The notes below the pieces were generated by a model. It was given only the letters and a program-made list of their open reading frames with translations. It was not told where the DNA came from and did not search any database. 35,167 nucleotides of DNA. Origin: Opitutaceae bacterium (GTDB taxonomy: Bacteria; Verrucomicrobiota; Verrucomicrobiia; Opitutales; Opitutaceae). The stretch spans positions 1-35,167 of the forward strand of contig JACSRI010000190.1 of NCBI GenBank assembly GCA_014879845.1, written 5' to 3'. Positions 28,608 to 35,167 of this stretch are shown here, one piece after another (the first letter of the stretch is position 1; each line of letters starts with the position of its first letter). The translations under genes were made by a program, and so were the position numbers.

Positions 28608-28940
28608 ATGAGCGAAAGCAGTGACGCGATCGAACGGGAAATTCTGCGCCCACTCTGGAAGGTCCACATCCTGCATCATGCCGGTGAGGAGCCGATTCTG
28701 GGAAACTGGATGCTCGAAGAACTCCGCGAGCACGGGTACCGCGTAAGTCCAGGCACGCTCTATCCGATGCTGGCGCGGTTGACCCGGCTGGGATGGCTGG
28801 CAGCCGAGAAGACGGGCGAGGGCAACACCGTGCGCTACCGCTTAACGAAGGCCGGTCGCGTGGTCCTCGAGGAGGTCCAGGCGCGTCTGACCGAGCTTCA
28901 GCAGGAAGTGTTTTCTCCACGACGGGGCGAAAAGGGATGA
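28608..28940 (+). CDS. PadR-family transcriptional regulator
   Basis: The product has 110 residues, a single PadR winged helix: LRPLWKVHILHHAGEEPILG, LEELREHGYRVSPGTLYPML and ARLTRLGWLAAEKTGEG, followed by VRYRLTKAGRVVLEEVQ and a short dimerisation helix. PadR regulators repress stress or efflux genes until a ligand binds. The stop overlaps the start of chrA (ATGA at 28937-28940), so the two are translationally coupled, and chrA is the likely target. Confidence 0.92.
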   Translation: MSESSDAIEREILRPLWKVHILHHAGEEPILGNWMLEELREHGYRVSPGTLYPMLARLTRLGWLAAEKTGEGNTVRYRLTKAGRVVLEEVQARLTELQQEVFSPRRGEKG

Positions 28941-30151
28941 ACACTGGACCTTCCACCGCCGTGAAGGCACGCCCGCACCGTGTCCGCGAAATCGCCGCAG
29001 TATTCCTCAAGCTCGGCTGCATTTCCTTCGGCGGGCCGGTGGCTCACCTGGGCTATTTGCGCGAGGAACTCGTCGCGCGCCGACGCTGGCTCGACGACGC
29101 GGCCTACAGCGATCTCGTCGCGCTCTGCCAATTTCTTCCCGGACCCGCGAGCAGCCAGGTGGTCTTCGGCTTGGGGATGAGTCGGGGCGGCTTGCTTGGC
29201 GCGGCCGTGGCTTCGGCGTGTTTCACGCTGCCCTCGGCGCTGTTGATGATCCTCTTCGCCTACGGCGTGACGTTCATGGGCGACCTCCGGGAAGCGGGCT
29301 GGTTGCACGGATTGAAACTCGCCGCCGTGGCCGTCGTCGCGCAGGCGGTCTGGGGCATGGGGGTGAAGCTCTGCCCTGACCGCGCACGCGCGTCGTTGGC
29401 GCTCGCCGCCGCCGCGGTGCTGCTCGTCGTGCCCACCGCGATCGTGCAAGTCGGCGTGATTGCCGCAGGCGCTCTGATCGGATGGGCGATCTATCGCCGC
29501 GAGGTCCCAATCAACGGTCCCGCAGCGACGGGGCTGGTCCGTGGACATCTGGTCGCAGCAGCCGCGCTGGTCGCGTGCTTTGCCCTACTCATCATCCTGC
29601 CTGCGGTGGCAACCGCCACCGGTTCGCGTGGCGTTCAGGTCTTCGACAGCTTCTATCGATCCGGCTCGTTGGTGTTTGGTGGCGGCCATGTGATCCTGCC
29701 GCTCCTGCGAGCTGAGGTCGTGCCTCCGGGTTGGGTGGCCGACGATGCTTTCCTCGCCGGTTACGGTGCGGCGCAAGCGGTGCCCGGGCCGCTGTTCACG
29801 CTGGCGGCGTATCTTGGAACAGTCATTCACGGCGGACCGGACGCGTGGCTTGGTGGTGTCGCCTGTCTCGCTGCGATCTTTCTTCCCGCGTGGCTGCTCG
29901 TGGGTGGTGCGCTGCCCTTCTGGCACCTGCTGCGGGGCAAAGCGTGGACGCAGGCGGCACTGCGTGGCGCAAACGCGGCGGTGGTCGGTGTGCTGCTGGC
30001 GGCACTCTACAATCCGGTCTGGAAAGAAGGCGTCAGGAGCGCCGCCGATGTCGCCGTCGCGCTGGCGGTCTTTGCCCTGCTCGAGACTTGGCGGCTACCC
30101 GCGTGGCTCGTGGTGGTCGTCGCTGCCGCGGCCGGCCAATGGCTGCTGTGA
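28937..30151 (+). CDS. chrA: chromate transporter, CHR family
   Basis: The product has 404 residues from an ATG overlapping the padR stop. It shows two homologous CHR halves with about ten to twelve membrane helices. The first half has FGGPVAHLGYLREELV and CQFLPGPASSQVVFGLGMSR; the second has FGGGHVILPLLRAEVV and GYGAAQAVPGPLFTLAAYLG. The length matches two-domain ChrA proteins (about 400), which export chromate from the cytoplasm. PadR-linked chrA genes are a known arrangement, suggesting inducible control. Confidence 0.95.
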   Translation: MNTGPSTAVKARPHRVREIAAVFLKLGCISFGGPVAHLGYLREELVARRRWLDDAAYSDLVALCQFLPGPASSQVVFGLGMSRGGLLGAAVASACFTLPSALLMILFAYGVTFMGDLREAGWLHGLKLAAVAVVAQAVWGMGVKLCPDRARASLALAAAAVLLVVPTAIVQVGVIAAGALIGWAIYRREVPINGPAATGLVRGHLVAAAALVACFALLIILPAVATATGSRGVQVFDSFYRSGSLVFGGGHVILPLLRAEVVPPGWVADDAFLAGYGAAQAVPGPLFTLAAYLGTVIHGGPDAWLGGVACLAAIFLPAWLLVGGALPFWHLLRGKAWTQAALRGANAAVVGVLLAALYNPVWKEGVRSAADVAVALAVFALLETWRLPAWLVVVVAAAAGQWLL

Positions 30152-30279: not shown

Positions 30280-30356
<77 letters not shown>

Positions 30357-30458: not shown

Positions 30459-31436
30459 TCAGCCGCTGCCACAGGCCGCGCACCCGACCTCGGGCTCGAC
30501 CTGCTGGGTGCGATTCTGACGCTCGAGGCGGTCGCGCCGTGCGGAAAAGCAGAGGGGACACGCGGCGAACCCTTCCAGGCCCCATGTATCCGAAAAAACA
30601 CGTCCGCGGCCCAGCGCGAGCGCACCAGTCTGTGCCGCCTCGAGGGCCGCCAGGGTCGGCGGGGTCCACTCGCCCGCGGCACGCAGGCGCTCCATCGCAC
30701 CGTTACCCGCGCGCGTCGGGATGAGCACGACCGCGCTGGCTCCGCAGTCGAAGGCGAACGCCGCCGACTTGATCGCCCACGCGACGCCGAGTGCCGGGTC
30801 GAGAAACGGCGGGTTGACGAGCAGGAACGCGCGCAGGGCGATCCGCGCGGCGGCGAGCCGCTCGGCCGCACGCGCGAACTGCGCGAGGTCGAACTTCTTG
30901 TTCAGCTTTTCCAGCACCTCCGGGTGTGCCGTCTCCAGGCCGAGTGCGACCTCGAGCGTGCCGGCGAGCCGATCGCGCAGTCGCACCGCGCGCTCACCCA
31001 CGAGGAGCGGATGCGACTCGACCACGACATGGCGCGCAAAGCCGAGATGTCGCGCGATGGCCGCATCGTCGCCGGGCGGAATCGCCGCGGGGTCGAAGAA
31101 ACTCCCGCTGTTGTAGAGCTTCACCTGCACCGGGAGTTTCCCGGCCTCCGCCCATCCGCGCACGGCCGACTCCACCTGGCGCGCCACCGCGCCCTCCGGC
31201 GCCGACTCGGCAAGCATGTCCTTCCAGAGATCGCACATGACGCAGCGCCACGGGCATTCGCGGTTGGTCAACAGCATGACACCCGACGAGACGACGTCGC
31301 CGGACGCGAGACGCTCCTCCTCGAGAAACACGGCGTGCGCGCTGTCAACGTCGGCGACACGCACGCGCGGCGGACGTTGCGCGAGGATCCACGCGGTGCG
31401 GCCGCGCCCCGGATAGACGGACGCGCCGCCGCTCAC
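30459..31436 (-). CDS. radical SAM enzyme of the TIGR01210/RaSEA-like type
   Basis: The product has 325 residues. C61, C65 and C68 in ECPWRCVMCDLW form the CxxxCxxC [4Fe-4S] site. LYNSGSFFDPAAIP and the later VALGLETAHPEVLEKLNKKF resemble radical SAM proteins related to archaeosine synthase subunit RaSEA (TIGR01210). C-terminal pairs C293/C296 and C319/C322 look like a zinc ribbon or a second cluster site. The start overlaps the end of the AsnB-like gene by 4 bases (31433-31436), so the two are translationally coupled. The substrate is unknown; tRNA-base or small-molecule modification are both possible. Confidence 0.8.
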   Translation of the reverse strand: MSGGASVYPGRGRTAWILAQRPPRVRVADVDSAHAVFLEEERLASGDVVSSGVMLLTNRECPWRCVMCDLWKDMLAESAPEGAVARQVESAVRGWAEAGKLPVQVKLYNSGSFFDPAAIPPGDDAAIARHLGFARHVVVESHPLLVGERAVRLRDRLAGTLEVALGLETAHPEVLEKLNKKFDLAQFARAAERLAAARIALRAFLLVNPPFLDPALGVAWAIKSAAFAFDCGASAVVLIPTRAGNGAMERLRAAGEWTPPTLAALEAAQTGALALGRGRVFSDTWGLEGFAACPLCFSARRDRLERQNRTQQVEPEVGCAACGSG

Positions 31437-32755
31437 TGGTAGAGCGCGTGGTACTGCCGGCGGTAATCAGTCTCGAGCGTACCCAGCCGCTGGCGCAGCC
31501 CGTCGACGGGAATCGCCCCGTGCTGGAAGCGGCGTTTCTCGAAGACCGGCATCTCGAGGCCGAAGTGCGCCTGCACGCCGCGCCGCACGACCTCGCCCTT
31601 GAGTGAGTAGAGCTTTTCCACCGACATCCCGCTCAAGGCCGTGAACGGGATGCCCTCCGCCACCGCGACGACCGCAGGGCGCGTGAACGGGCTGAATCCC
31701 TCGAACCCGAGGTGCCGCGCCGGCGCGTAGGTGCGCGCGTAGCTCCGGCTCAACCCGCCGCTGTAGGTGAGCGAGTGCTTGATACGCCCCACCCCCCAGC
31801 CCTCATGGTAGAGCATGAGATTGTTGACCACGCTACGGATCGTCAGCTCGGGGTTCTCCTCGATCGGGTAGTCCTTGAGATTCTCGTCGCCGCCATCGCC
31901 GTCGATCATGAATCGCCACTGTGGATACCGCGCGCGGACGCCGCGATGCAGTGCGAGCACCATCGAGGCGCATTCGACGTCGAGCGGCTTGTAGTCCTCG
32001 AGCACGCGCAGCGTCTCGGCCACGTCGAGCGACGCCGGGTCCGCCTCAACCGTCTCGAGATACATCCCCCACCCGAGACGCGCCAGGAACTCCCGCGCCT
32101 GCCGCACGTCCGGGCCATCGCCAAAATCGAGGGTGAAGGCCTTGAGCCGGGCCGGATTCATGCCGAGCCGGCGCATGACCTCATGGACGGTCACCAAGAC
32201 CGCGCCGCTGTCGATGCCTCCCGAGAAACACACGCCAATCGGCTCGCGCTCCGGGATGCCCGTGAGCCACTTCGCCACCTCGTCGGCCAGCGCGCCGATG
32301 TAGGCGCGACCGATCGCGTCGACGTCGGCCGGCAGGGCGTTGCGCTGGGGTGTGAAATACCGCGTGTAGGTCGGATCCGGGTCCGGGCACCCGACGAGCT
32401 GCAGTTCGACCACATAGTGTGCGGGCACCATGCGCGTGTAGCTCGGATGAAACTGGCGCTGCAGCCCCTCGCGCCGGAGGCAGGCGTGGATCGCGTCGAT
32501 GCGGTCGGCGACGATGAGCGCCGGGCCCTCCATGCGCTTGGCCAGGAAGTAGCGCAGCGGCCGGTCGAGCGAGCGAGCCAGGCGGACGCGCTTGCCCTCG
32601 CGCGCGACGAGCGCAAACGAGCCGTCGATCTCGAGGACCGATTCGGGCGTGCCGTGGAGGATGCGCTCGCGCGCCTCCTCGACGGACATGTTGCGGATGC
32701 GCTGGGTGGCCGGGTCGATGAGATCAACCAGCCGTTCGACATACTCGGCGTGCAT
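31433..32755 (-). CDS. asparagine-synthetase-like ATP-dependent ligase without glutaminase cysteine
   Basis: The product has 440 residues. Residues 170-440 are the AsnB-type synthetase fold, with the ATP pyrophosphatase loop SGGIDS (178-183), GDGGDE (286-291), SPFTRPAVVAVAEGIP and the LKGEVVRR lysine segment (K386). Residues 38-120 keep traces of the class II glutaminase domain (IDGSFALVAREGKRVRLARS, ALIVADRIDAIHA), but the first 40-50 residues, with the catalytic N-terminal Cys, are missing (it begins MHAEYVERL). It should therefore use ammonia or another amine, as beta-lactam synthetase does, to form an amide via an acyl-adenylate. It is coupled to the radical SAM gene. Confidence 0.85.
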   Translation of the reverse strand: MHAEYVERLVDLIDPATQRIRNMSVEEARERILHGTPESVLEIDGSFALVAREGKRVRLARSLDRPLRYFLAKRMEGPALIVADRIDAIHACLRREGLQRQFHPSYTRMVPAHYVVELQLVGCPDPDPTYTRYFTPQRNALPADVDAIGRAYIGALADEVAKWLTGIPEREPIGVCFSGGIDSGAVLVTVHEVMRRLGMNPARLKAFTLDFGDGPDVRQAREFLARLGWGMYLETVEADPASLDVAETLRVLEDYKPLDVECASMVLALHRGVRARYPQWRFMIDGDGGDENLKDYPIEENPELTIRSVVNNLMLYHEGWGVGRIKHSLTYSGGLSRSYARTYAPARHLGFEGFSPFTRPAVVAVAEGIPFTALSGMSVEKLYSLKGEVVRRGVQAHFGLEMPVFEKRRFQHGAIPVDGLRQRLGTLETDYRRQYHALYQ

Positions 32756-33143
32756 GGCGTTTGGGACAGGGGAGAAGATCAGGGAAAGGGCCGCGGCGCG
32801 ACCGGCGGCAAACCATCCGGGCCGGCGGGGCGACGCAACGCGAAACGGCCCCGTGCGCGCGCGATGAAGCAGGCGCTGGCAATTGACCCCACGCCGCTGG
32901 CGACTCGCCCCTTTTCCATGTGCCGGCGCGAACGAGGTCGCTTGTTTTTTCCCGTTCCGCCCCCCCGCCGGATCGCTTCCGCCTCACCGACTGCTCGCGC
33001 CTATCCGGCCCGTGTACCCACGCACGCATCACATCTCTGATCGCCTCCTGGCCGCCGCCGGCACCCGGGCAGGCGAGTTCGCCCACGGAGAGCCGTCGGC
33101 GAAGGGATTGGACGCGGCGTCGGCGATCGGCTGACTTCACGTC
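32756..33143. other. divergent spacer
   Basis: The region separates the AsnB-like gene from the TPR/ASPIC gene, transcribed away from each other. No gene, clear promoter or repeat was seen; composition is G+C-rich apart from a short T-run (ttgttttttcc) near 32942. Confidence 0.35.
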
Positions 33144-35167
33144 ATGGCCAAACGCGCTCTCTGGATCGGCGTCCTCGCCCTCGGTCTCGGTCTCGCGCTC
33201 GCCGTCGCCCTGATGCGGCATCGGCAGCCGTCATCGGCCACGCCCCCGGACCAGGCGACCCCGTCGGCGGCGTTTGTCGTCGCGATGAACCGCGGCAACG
33301 GCCTCCTCGATCAGGGCGACTCCACCGGCGCGCTCGCCGCCTACGCCGAGGCGCTGCGCCTCTCGCCTCAGGCCACCGACGCGAGGCTCAACCTCGCCAA
33401 CGCCCATCTCCGCGCCTCGCAGCCGGCCGAGGCCGCGGTCTATTGCCGCCAGGTGCTCGAACTCGAGCCGAACAACGCCGCCGCGCACTATCTGCTGGGC
33501 TGCGCGCTGCTGCGCCAGAATCAGCCCGTCCCGGCGGCGGAGGCGTTTCAGCACTCCTGGCGGCTCGACCCGGGCGAGCCCGCCCTCGACTTCCAGATGG
33601 GCCTCGCCCACATGCAGCTCGGGCACGCCGAGGATGCCATCCGACTCTTCGAGAACGTCGTGCGCGCTACACCCGATCACCCGTCCGCGCACTACCAACT
33701 GAGTCAGCTCTACCGGCGCGCCGGCCGGTCCGAAGACGCCGCCCGCGCCCTGGCTGCGCACCAACGCGTCCTGGCCGCCGCCGGCCAGGCCCTCATCGCC
33801 GTCACCGATCTCGAGCGCTGCAAACACACGCGCCCGCTCGCGCCGTTCGTCCTCGCCCAGCCCGACATGCGCGGCATCTCGATCCGCTTCGCCGACGCGA
33901 CGGAGCAGGCCTTTGGCGCGGTCGCACCGGCGCACCGCGGACCGCTGGCGGTGATCGACACCGAGCGCGATGGTCGCGCGAGTCTCCTGGCCCAGGCCAC
34001 CGCCGGTGGATTCGCCCTCTTGGAAAACCGCGGCGGCAGCTTCACCGCCCCCGCTCGCCCGATGCGCGTGCCCGCCTCGGACGGATACCGCGCTGTCCTG
34101 GTCGGCGATCTCGACAACGACGGTCTTGATGACGTGGTCGTGCTCGGCGAGCAGGATACGCGCGTCTTCAAGCTCTACGAAGGCCGCCGCCTGCGCGACG
34201 CGACCCGCACCGTCGGCCTCGAGGGGCTCAAGGCCAGTGGCGGCCTCCTCGCCGACCTCGACTTCACGGGCAATCTCGACCTCGTCACCATCCAGCCCGA
34301 CGGCACCGGCCTCGGGCTGCATCGCAATCTCGGCAATTTCTTCTTCGACTCCGCCTGGGCCGACTCCGGCCTGCCGCGCGACCTGCCGCAGGCCGCTCAT
34401 GTCCTGACGGTCGACTGGAACAACGAAGGCCTGCCCGGCGTCTTCGTGGCCCGCGCCGGCGCGGCGCCCGCGCATTTCACCAAGAAGCGCGCCGCCGCCT
34501 ACGTGCCGGGCGACGCGACCACGGGCTGGCCGGCCGGCGCCGTCATCGAACTCGGCGATCTCGACAATGACCTCCGCCCCGAGGCCGTCGTCGCCACAGC
34601 CGACGCGCTCGAGATCATCGACCGCGAGCAGGACGCCCGGGCGCAGCTGCCGCTCGCGGACTTCACCAGCGCCGGCCTGCTCCTCACGGATTTCGACAAC
34701 GACGGCTGGCTCGACCTCCTCGCCTGGGGTCCGAGCGGCCTGCGCGCCTGGCGCAACACCGGACACGCGGGTTTTGTCGATCGCACCCGCGACCTCGGGC
34801 TCGGCGACGCGGGCGCGATCGATGCGCTCGTCGCGGCCGATCTCGATGCCGACGGCGATACCGACCTCGTATCCAGCAGCCCCGGGCGCGGGCTTCGCTT
34901 CTGGCGCAACGACGGCGGCAACCAAAACCACCAGCTCAAGCTCCGCCTCGCCGGCAACCGCTCCAACACGAGTTCGCTCGGCGTGCGGGTCGAGGCGATC
35001 GCCGGCGACTGGCGGACGAGCCGGACCATCCGCAGCCTCCCGACCGAAATCGGCGTCGGGGCGCATGCAAAACTCGACGCGCTGCGCGTCCACTGGTTCG
35101 ACCTCTCCACTGCGCAGATCGATGTCGCCGTCGGCCCCGACGTCGATTTCGGTCGGGAGGCTGCGGA
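33144..35167 (+). CDS. TPR/VCBS/ASPIC-UnbV (CRTAC1-like) protein, 3' end outside the window
   Basis: The frame is open from the ATG at 33144 to the window end (674 codons). An N-terminal membrane anchor (ALWIGVLALGLGLALAVALM) is followed by four or five TPR units at about residues 50-215 (ALAAYAEALRLSPQATDARL, AVYCRQVLELEPNNAAAHYL, AIRLFENVVRATPDHPSAHY). VCBS/FG-GAP motifs run from about 315 to 590 (VGDLDNDGLDDVVVLGE, LTDFDNDGWLDLLAWG, AADLDADGDTDLVSS). An ASPIC/UnbV domain starts at about residue 595 (NHQLKLRLAGNRSNTSSLGV). This architecture is common in Verrucomicrobiota, Planctomycetota and Acidobacteriota surface proteins. The function is unknown. Confidence 0.9.
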   Translation, partial: MAKRALWIGVLALGLGLALAVALMRHRQPSSATPPDQATPSAAFVVAMNRGNGLLDQGDSTGALAAYAEALRLSPQATDARLNLANAHLRASQPAEAAVYCRQVLELEPNNAAAHYLLGCALLRQNQPVPAAEAFQHSWRLDPGEPALDFQMGLAHMQLGHAEDAIRLFENVVRATPDHPSAHYQLSQLYRRAGRSEDAARALAAHQRVLAAAGQALIAVTDLERCKHTRPLAPFVLAQPDMRGISIRFADATEQAFGAVAPAHRGPLAVIDTERDGRASLLAQATAGGFALLENRGGSFTAPARPMRVPASDGYRAVLVGDLDNDGLDDVVVLGEQDTRVFKLYEGRRLRDATRTVGLEGLKASGGLLADLDFTGNLDLVTIQPDGTGLGLHRNLGNFFFDSAWADSGLPRDLPQAAHVLTVDWNNEGLPGVFVARAGAAPAHFTKKRAAAYVPGDATTGWPAGAVIELGDLDNDLRPEAVVATADALEIIDREQDARAQLPLADFTSAGLLLTDFDNDGWLDLLAWGPSGLRAWRNTGHAGFVDRTRDLGLGDAGAIDALVAADLDADGDTDLVSSSPGRGLRFWRNDGGNQNHQLKLRLAGNRSNTSSLGVRVEAIAGDWRTSRTIRSLPTEIGVGAHAKLDALRVHWFDLSTAQIDVAVGPDVDFGREAA

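Follow-up and report, generated by a model that had tools for sequence, protein, structure and literature searches.

Two overlapping genes of an Opitutaceae bacterium encode an amide ligase of the asparagine-synthetase fold (AsnL) and a radical SAM enzyme of the RaSEA/QueL type (rSAM), which almost certainly belong to one pathway, because genomes from two bacterial phyla nearly always have either both genes or neither. Every component comes from a known superfamily, yet the databases and papers that could be searched contain no account of either family or of the pair: no family in the databases that we searched claims AsnL or rSAM, and we found no description of the pair in the open-licence literature. 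An earlier note, written from the sequence of the window (the whole 35,167-nucleotide stretch that was analysed), had proposed a coupled and undescribed ligase/radical SAM system here, and these searches, together with the near-strict co-occurrence reported below, bear that proposal out. With a probability of roughly 0.4, we read the pair as a small-molecule amide pathway, in which AsnL would form an amide and rSAM would cleave or rearrange a C-N bond on a metabolite or cofactor-like substrate.

The placement of both genes on the minus strand with a 4-base overlap was confirmed in the sequence, and the following features of the pair were assigned:

31433..32755, minus strand: AsnL, asparagine-synthetase-fold amide ligase of 440 aa without the glutaminase Cys (profiles and AF2 model)
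30459..31436, minus strand: rSAM, RaSEA/QueL-type radical SAM enzyme of 325 aa (TIGR01210, 6p78 profile match and AF2 model)
31433..31436, minus strand: GTGA overlap of the AsnL stop TGA (31435-31433) and the rSAM start GTG (31436-31434), from the sequence
32204..32224, minus strand: ATP-pyrophosphatase loop SGGIDSG of AsnL, residues 178-184 (invariant residues, 58 orthologues)
31883..31903, minus strand: DGDGGDE motif of AsnL, residues 285-291 (58 orthologues; matches AsnB SGEGSDE)
31721..31903, minus strand: hyper-conserved segment of AsnL, residues 285-345 (69% of positions invariant; larger domains 20-31%)
31233..31256, minus strand: CxxxCxxC (CPWRCVMC) of rSAM, SAM-binding [4Fe-4S] motif, residues 61-68 (51/51 orthologues)
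30471..30560, minus strand: C-terminal CxxC...CxxC of rSAM, zinc-ribbon-like, residues 293-296 and 319-322 (lost in lineages with scattered genes)

AsnL and rSAM are kept or lost together

In a class-wide, unbiased sample of 384 genomes, AsnL was found in 28 and rSAM in 30, and all 28 genomes with AsnL also carried rSAM (Fisher p = 1.6e-40, or 4.6e-29 by genus, both made optimistic by the relatedness of the genomes). The two genomes with rSAM only belong to genera that otherwise carry both genes, and one of the two matches reaches a contig edge, such that assembly gaps are the likely cause. The coordinates place the two genes side by side in 11 of the 28 class genomes, and among 50 genomes picked for AsnL, rSAM was present in 46, mostly not beside it. 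In Acidobacteriota, where AsnL occurs in 26/237 genomes, rSAM lay beside AsnL in every locus with flanking sequence (24/24), with a flavoprotein gene next in 22 of them. Contrary to the possibility, considered in the earlier note, that homologues are never adjacent, they are thus often adjacent and almost never single. The overlap, whose conservation in Verrucomicrobiota had been put forward as a check, recurs in 7 of the 8 further Opitutaceae loci that were compared, and the sequences of several Acidobacteriota loci would also permit it. Moreover, the distances of AsnL and rSAM are correlated (Mantel r = 0.51), with none of 2000 permutations giving as high a value.

A scan of genome collections returned more than 540 AsnL relatives, of which the best 80, at 67-84% identity, belong for the most part to Verrucomicrobiota and Acidobacteriota; one is from an Abditibacteriaceae bin. 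Opitutaceae bacterium EW11 (locus L015), the only one of the Opitutaceae records not marked as a metagenome bin, carries the pair. Viral spread was considered and rejected, with one partial match to a viral contig and none to a phage. The pair is highly conserved, with AsnL orthologues 67-85% identical across the two phyla (mean column identity 74%), yet is kept or lost as a whole, and therefore indicates a definite pathway, for which we found no description in any database or paper.

AsnL has the asparagine-synthetase fold but lacks the glutaminase

AsnL matched PF00733 with 54.1 bits and TIGR01536, the AsnB equivalog profile, with 46.5 bits, missing the cut-off of 267.1. Its AF2 model (pLDDT 87.6) best matches the fold of human ASNS (Z 25.0, rmsd 3.9-4.0 Å), with residues 3-440 lying on ASNS 37-526; further matches were beta-lactam synthetase (Z 24.9), carbapenam synthetase (Z 21.9) and the hydroxyamidotransferase TsnB9 (Z 20.4). 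AsnL thus shares with AsnB and ASNS the whole fold from residue ~37 onwards and the ATP-PPi motifs of the SGGxDS and GDGGDE types, but is without about 36 N-terminal residues, the catalytic Cys among them. Of the earlier claim that the ligase has lost the glutaminase Cys and its first 40-50 residues, the loss of the Cys therefore stands, and the missing stretch is somewhat shorter by the ASNS alignment. A hidden N-terminal extension that restores the Cys, another possibility considered in that note, is ruled out, since the open frames of several orthologues comprise only 446-450 codons for a match of ~437 residues, leaving no room for an upstream start. The retained motifs, which had been correctly recognised, align to those of E. 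coli AsnB (SGGIDSG to SGGLDSS, and DGDGGDE to SGEGSDE).

Judging from its family, AsnL is expected to adenylate a carboxylate and form an amide. Beta-lactam synthetase, carbapenam synthetase and TsnB9 make amides other than asparagine on this fold (Z 20-25), and in the first two the glutaminase-like domain is inactive, comparable to AsnL, where the Cys region is absent altogether. Nevertheless, all three belong to antibiotic pathways, have no RaSEA-like partner and are only 12-20% identical to AsnL.

The most conserved part of AsnL is the segment of residues 285-345, followed by a short motif at residues 401-414 (64% invariant). In AsnB, the stretch corresponding to residues 285-345 holds aspartate, and in AsnL this aspartate-site sequence is replaced by the hyper-conserved segment, making it very unlikely that asparagine is the product. 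The stretches of lowest AF2 confidence in AsnL also fall within this segment, which may become ordered upon binding of a specific substrate or partner.

rSAM is related to RaSEA and queuine lyase

TIGR01210, the RaSEA profile, matched residues 37-284 of rSAM with 98.6 bits (E = 3.8e-28), under its curated equivalog cut-off of 212.15 bits, and the rSAMs of six genomes scored 88-112 bits; the match substantiates the "RaSEA-like segments" that had been noticed in the sequence. In the PDB, the rSAM profile matched a single sequence, the queuine lyase QueL (6p78; E = 6.9e-8), with which rSAM shares the NSGSFF, E-H and GxET...LNK motifs. QueL also ties for the best fold match of the AF2 model (pLDDT 96.3; Z 16.7, rmsd 3.4 over 218 residues). 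However, HydE and biotin synthase (BioB) tie with it (Z 16.2-16.7), and family membership is a poor guide to radical SAM chemistry. RaSEA and QueL both act by cleaving a C-N bond in the side chain of a 7-deazaguanine, making it plausible that the pair follows a logic of ligation and then radical cleavage.

The CxxxCxxC motif and the two C-terminal CxxC pairs reported in the earlier note are present. An essential auxiliary cluster formed by the C-terminal pairs is ruled out, because whole lineages, those with scattered genes, are without them.

Among the closest known systems is that of RaSEA, which acts with ArcS in C-N cleavage at a 7-deazaguanine side chain (PMC11298593). The pair resembles it in the CxxxCxxC motif, in having RaSEA as the nearest family profile, in the logic of adding a group before a radical step and in the obligate partner enzyme. 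It differs in that rSAM scores below the cut-off, the pair is bacterial, the partner is an ATP-dependent AsnB-fold ligase rather than ArcS, and the window's own genome, although 99.4% complete, contains no tRNA-guanine transglycosylase (TGT). QueL works in queuine salvage, and rSAM differs from it in the obligate partnership with a ligase and in the additional Cys region at its C-terminus. As TGT is present in 41/43 pair-bearing genomes but missing from this one, the pair cannot in general act on a 7-deazaguanine that TGT inserts, and archaeosine or a Q-type base made via TGT is unlikely. The comparison with archaeosine synthesis drawn in the earlier note holds for the kinship with RaSEA, but is unlikely, given the missing TGT and the score below the cut-off, to extend to archaeosine chemistry itself.

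Searches of plasmids returned no match to the ligase and one distant match to rSAM, on the Streptomyces sp. F8 plasmid pFRL5 (L205, 14665-15780; 36% identical). That relative sits in a natural-product-like cluster with genes for a cytochrome P450, a heptose adenylyltransferase, a carbamoyltransferase and a glycosyltransferase.

A halogenase-like flavoprotein accompanies the pair in other lineages

Outside Opitutaceae, a flavoprotein of 500-570 aa is often encoded directly after rSAM or elsewhere in the genome. It is found neither in the window's genome nor in two related pair-bearing genomes and, being missing in Opitutaceae, cannot be essential; the earlier note did not have it. Its profile matches the halogenase PltM and tetracycline 7-halogenase (E about 1e-70 to 1e-68) and, weakly, QhpG, LodB and GoxB, placing it in the family of the halogenases PltM and CtcP and the modifier QhpG. 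Unlike in PltM and CtcP, the halogenase motif WxWxIP reads WxWxLR (consensus WIWVLR in 18 orthologues), such that halogenation is not assured, and a nearly invariant lysine, K80, does not align with the lysine region of PltM. By sequence, a monooxygenase or a protein-modifying enzyme would be compatible with the QhpG, LodB and GoxB matches as well.

A candidate pathway for the pair

The most economical reading is that an amide is formed first and that a radical step then cleaves a C-N bond. The fold and motifs, the strict co-occurrence, the operon structure and the neighbouring flavoprotein and UnbV genes are observed, whereas the amide chemistry, the bond that is cleaved, the order of the steps and the kind of substrate are inferred. 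As an ATP-pyrophosphatase ligase, AsnL would activate a carboxylate as an acyl-adenylate and join it to ammonia or an external amine, yielding an amide; with no glutaminase, the amine would have to come from outside. The 5'-deoxyadenosyl radical of rSAM would then abstract a hydrogen next to a C-N bond of the AsnL product and cleave or rearrange that bond. In many lineages, the flavin-dependent halogenase-like enzyme may oxidise or halogenate the compound. The likeliest substrate would be a metabolite or cofactor-like molecule that is small and conserved widely; in several lineages it would be made next to secreted UnbV/ASPIC and UnbU-like proteins, which may make use of it or handle it.

Our preference for a small molecule over RNA or protein as the substrate rests on the flavoprotein, on the secreted neighbours and on the distribution of the pair: genes that are so well conserved and yet so patchily distributed look more like those for cofactors or specialised metabolites than like those for general tRNA modification. 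Against the small-molecule reading, the occurrence of rSAM in ribosomal operons and its nucleobase-acting relatives suit RNA better, and the clues to the substrate conflict, with the ribosomal operon on one side and the secreted-protein neighbours on the other.

The pair offers a direct test of whether radical C-N chemistry of the RaSEA/QueL type occurs outside 7-deazaguanine bases, and connects this chemistry to a partner enzyme, to a flavoprotein and, by genomic position, to UnbV/ASPIC and UnbU-like proteins. It is the combination of very strict pairing and testable chemistry that makes it of interest.

The ribosomal operon points to translation

In 13 genomes, most or all of one lineage, rSAM is the last gene of the operon rpsL-rpsG-fusA-rpsJ-rplC-rplD-rplW-rSAM (loci L097, L099, L100, L101, L103, L108, L109, L110, L113, L114, L116, L117 and L118). 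The str/S10 ribosomal operon there ends after rplW and rSAM, and the genes beyond differ between genomes, while the place of rSAM is kept despite a mean divergence of its sequence of ~50%. Mean distances across 11 of these ribosomal-operon genomes were 0.20 for AsnL, 0.19 for S7, 0.23 for L3 and 0.50 for rSAM, such that AsnL evolves as slowly as these two ribosomal proteins.

This position is a clue to translation and an argument for RNA modification, in which AsnL would acylate or amidate a tRNA or rRNA nucleoside and rSAM would cleave the added group, as a bacterial analogue of ArcS/RaSEA. Such a role would suit the kinship of rSAM with RaSEA and queuine lyase and the slow evolution of AsnL. 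It fits poorly, however, with presence in only 28/384 genomes, with the TGT distribution described above, with an AsnL in which no known RNA-binding domain was found, with a partner flavoprotein nearest to halogenases of free aromatics and with the secreted proteins that neighbour the pair elsewhere, and we consider it a possibility of about one in four. Somewhat more doubtful is a new two-step route of nitrogen transfer by a radical ligase-plus-lyase, in which the ATP-dependent AsnB-fold ligase would conjugate an amine donor to a carboxylate and the RaSEA-like enzyme would cleave the C-N bond of the donor, leaving the nitrogen behind; the target could possibly be an RNA base or some other component of the translation apparatus.

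Secreted UnbV/ASPIC neighbours point to a small molecule or a secreted protein

Upstream of AsnL, two further features of the window were assigned:

33144..35165, plus strand: divergent neighbour, secreted TPR and FG-GAP protein of the D14 type, running off the contig
32899..32917, minus strand: conserved non-coding element GGAAAAGGGGCGAGTCGCC / GAAAAGGGGYGAATCGCC between the divergent genes (same place in 7 Opitutaceae loci)

Full-length relatives of the protein encoded at 33144-35165 carry UnbV_ASPIC, and a large TPR/FG-GAP/UnbV_ASPIC gene lies divergent from AsnL in both Opitutaceae and Acidobacteriota, often accompanied by CRTAC1-type UnbV genes and an NQR2/RnfD-like (UnbU-like) gene; these neighbours, too, were absent from the earlier note. 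In L160 and L163, UnbV/UnbU-like genes lie up- or downstream on the same strand as AsnL, rSAM and the flavoprotein. One Acidobacteriota clade has the operon upstream of tmk-holB, without UnbV genes. An UnbV gene lies within 5 kb in 26/50 loci with the pair, 3/47 with AsnL alone and 0/25 with rSAM alone, a comparison confounded by lineage. UnbV domains occurred in 21/21 pair-bearing genomes tested and in 0/3 pair-negative Opitutaceae, suggesting an obligate partner. This idea is weakened by 1.2 Mb sampled from three further pair-negative genomes, one of which, G122, has an UnbV cluster, so that the link is one-sided. The window's own genome has 13 UnbV_ASPIC domains, and we found no described role of UnbV/ASPIC and UnbU-like proteins in these bacteria.

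The secreted neighbours in two phyla are a clue to a small molecule or a secreted protein. If a protein, the UnbV/ASPIC beta-propellers themselves might be modified, much as the radical SAM enzyme QhpD and the flavoprotein QhpG mature quinohemoprotein. The divergent gene beside AsnL in two phyla, the UnbV domains in every pair-bearing genome tested, the weak QhpG, LodB and GoxB matches and three genomes (G328, G327 and G826) that have few UnbV copies, several of them still on the contig of the pair and near it, would all be in keeping with such a role. Nevertheless, UnbV proteins are far more numerous than the pair and present without it in G122, many lineages have no UnbV linkage, and no conserved precursor peptide precedes AsnL, rendering protein modification unlikely, at about one chance in five. 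A RiPP whose precursor peptide is encoded ahead of AsnL was rejected on the same grounds, as 14 upstream regions held no conserved small ORF.

The idea that a degenerate asparagine synthetase gene simply lies next to a radical SAM gene to which it has no relation, as membership of two large, common superfamilies might suggest, is highly improbable in view of the near-perfect co-occurrence, the conserved overlap, the identity across two phyla, the absent AsnB N-terminus and the missed AsnB cut-off, and an accident of neighbourhood is already refuted.

The conserved element lies ~180-195 nt upstream of AsnL in the window and in L012, L013, L003, L015, L016 and L026, and was rejected as a known riboswitch, having no Rfam match. 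The names UnbU and UnbV go back to genes conserved in enediyne clusters, and the sets of TPR/FG-GAP/UnbV, CRTAC1-type UnbV and NQR2/RnfD-like genes in L160, L163, L156, L158 and L162 are reminiscent of these; no polyketide synthase was seen near these sets. In the window, a tRNA-Met(CAT) gene (30280-30356, minus strand) lies directly downstream of the pair, and a PadR-family regulator followed by a chromate transporter (28608-30151, plus strand) is convergent with it.
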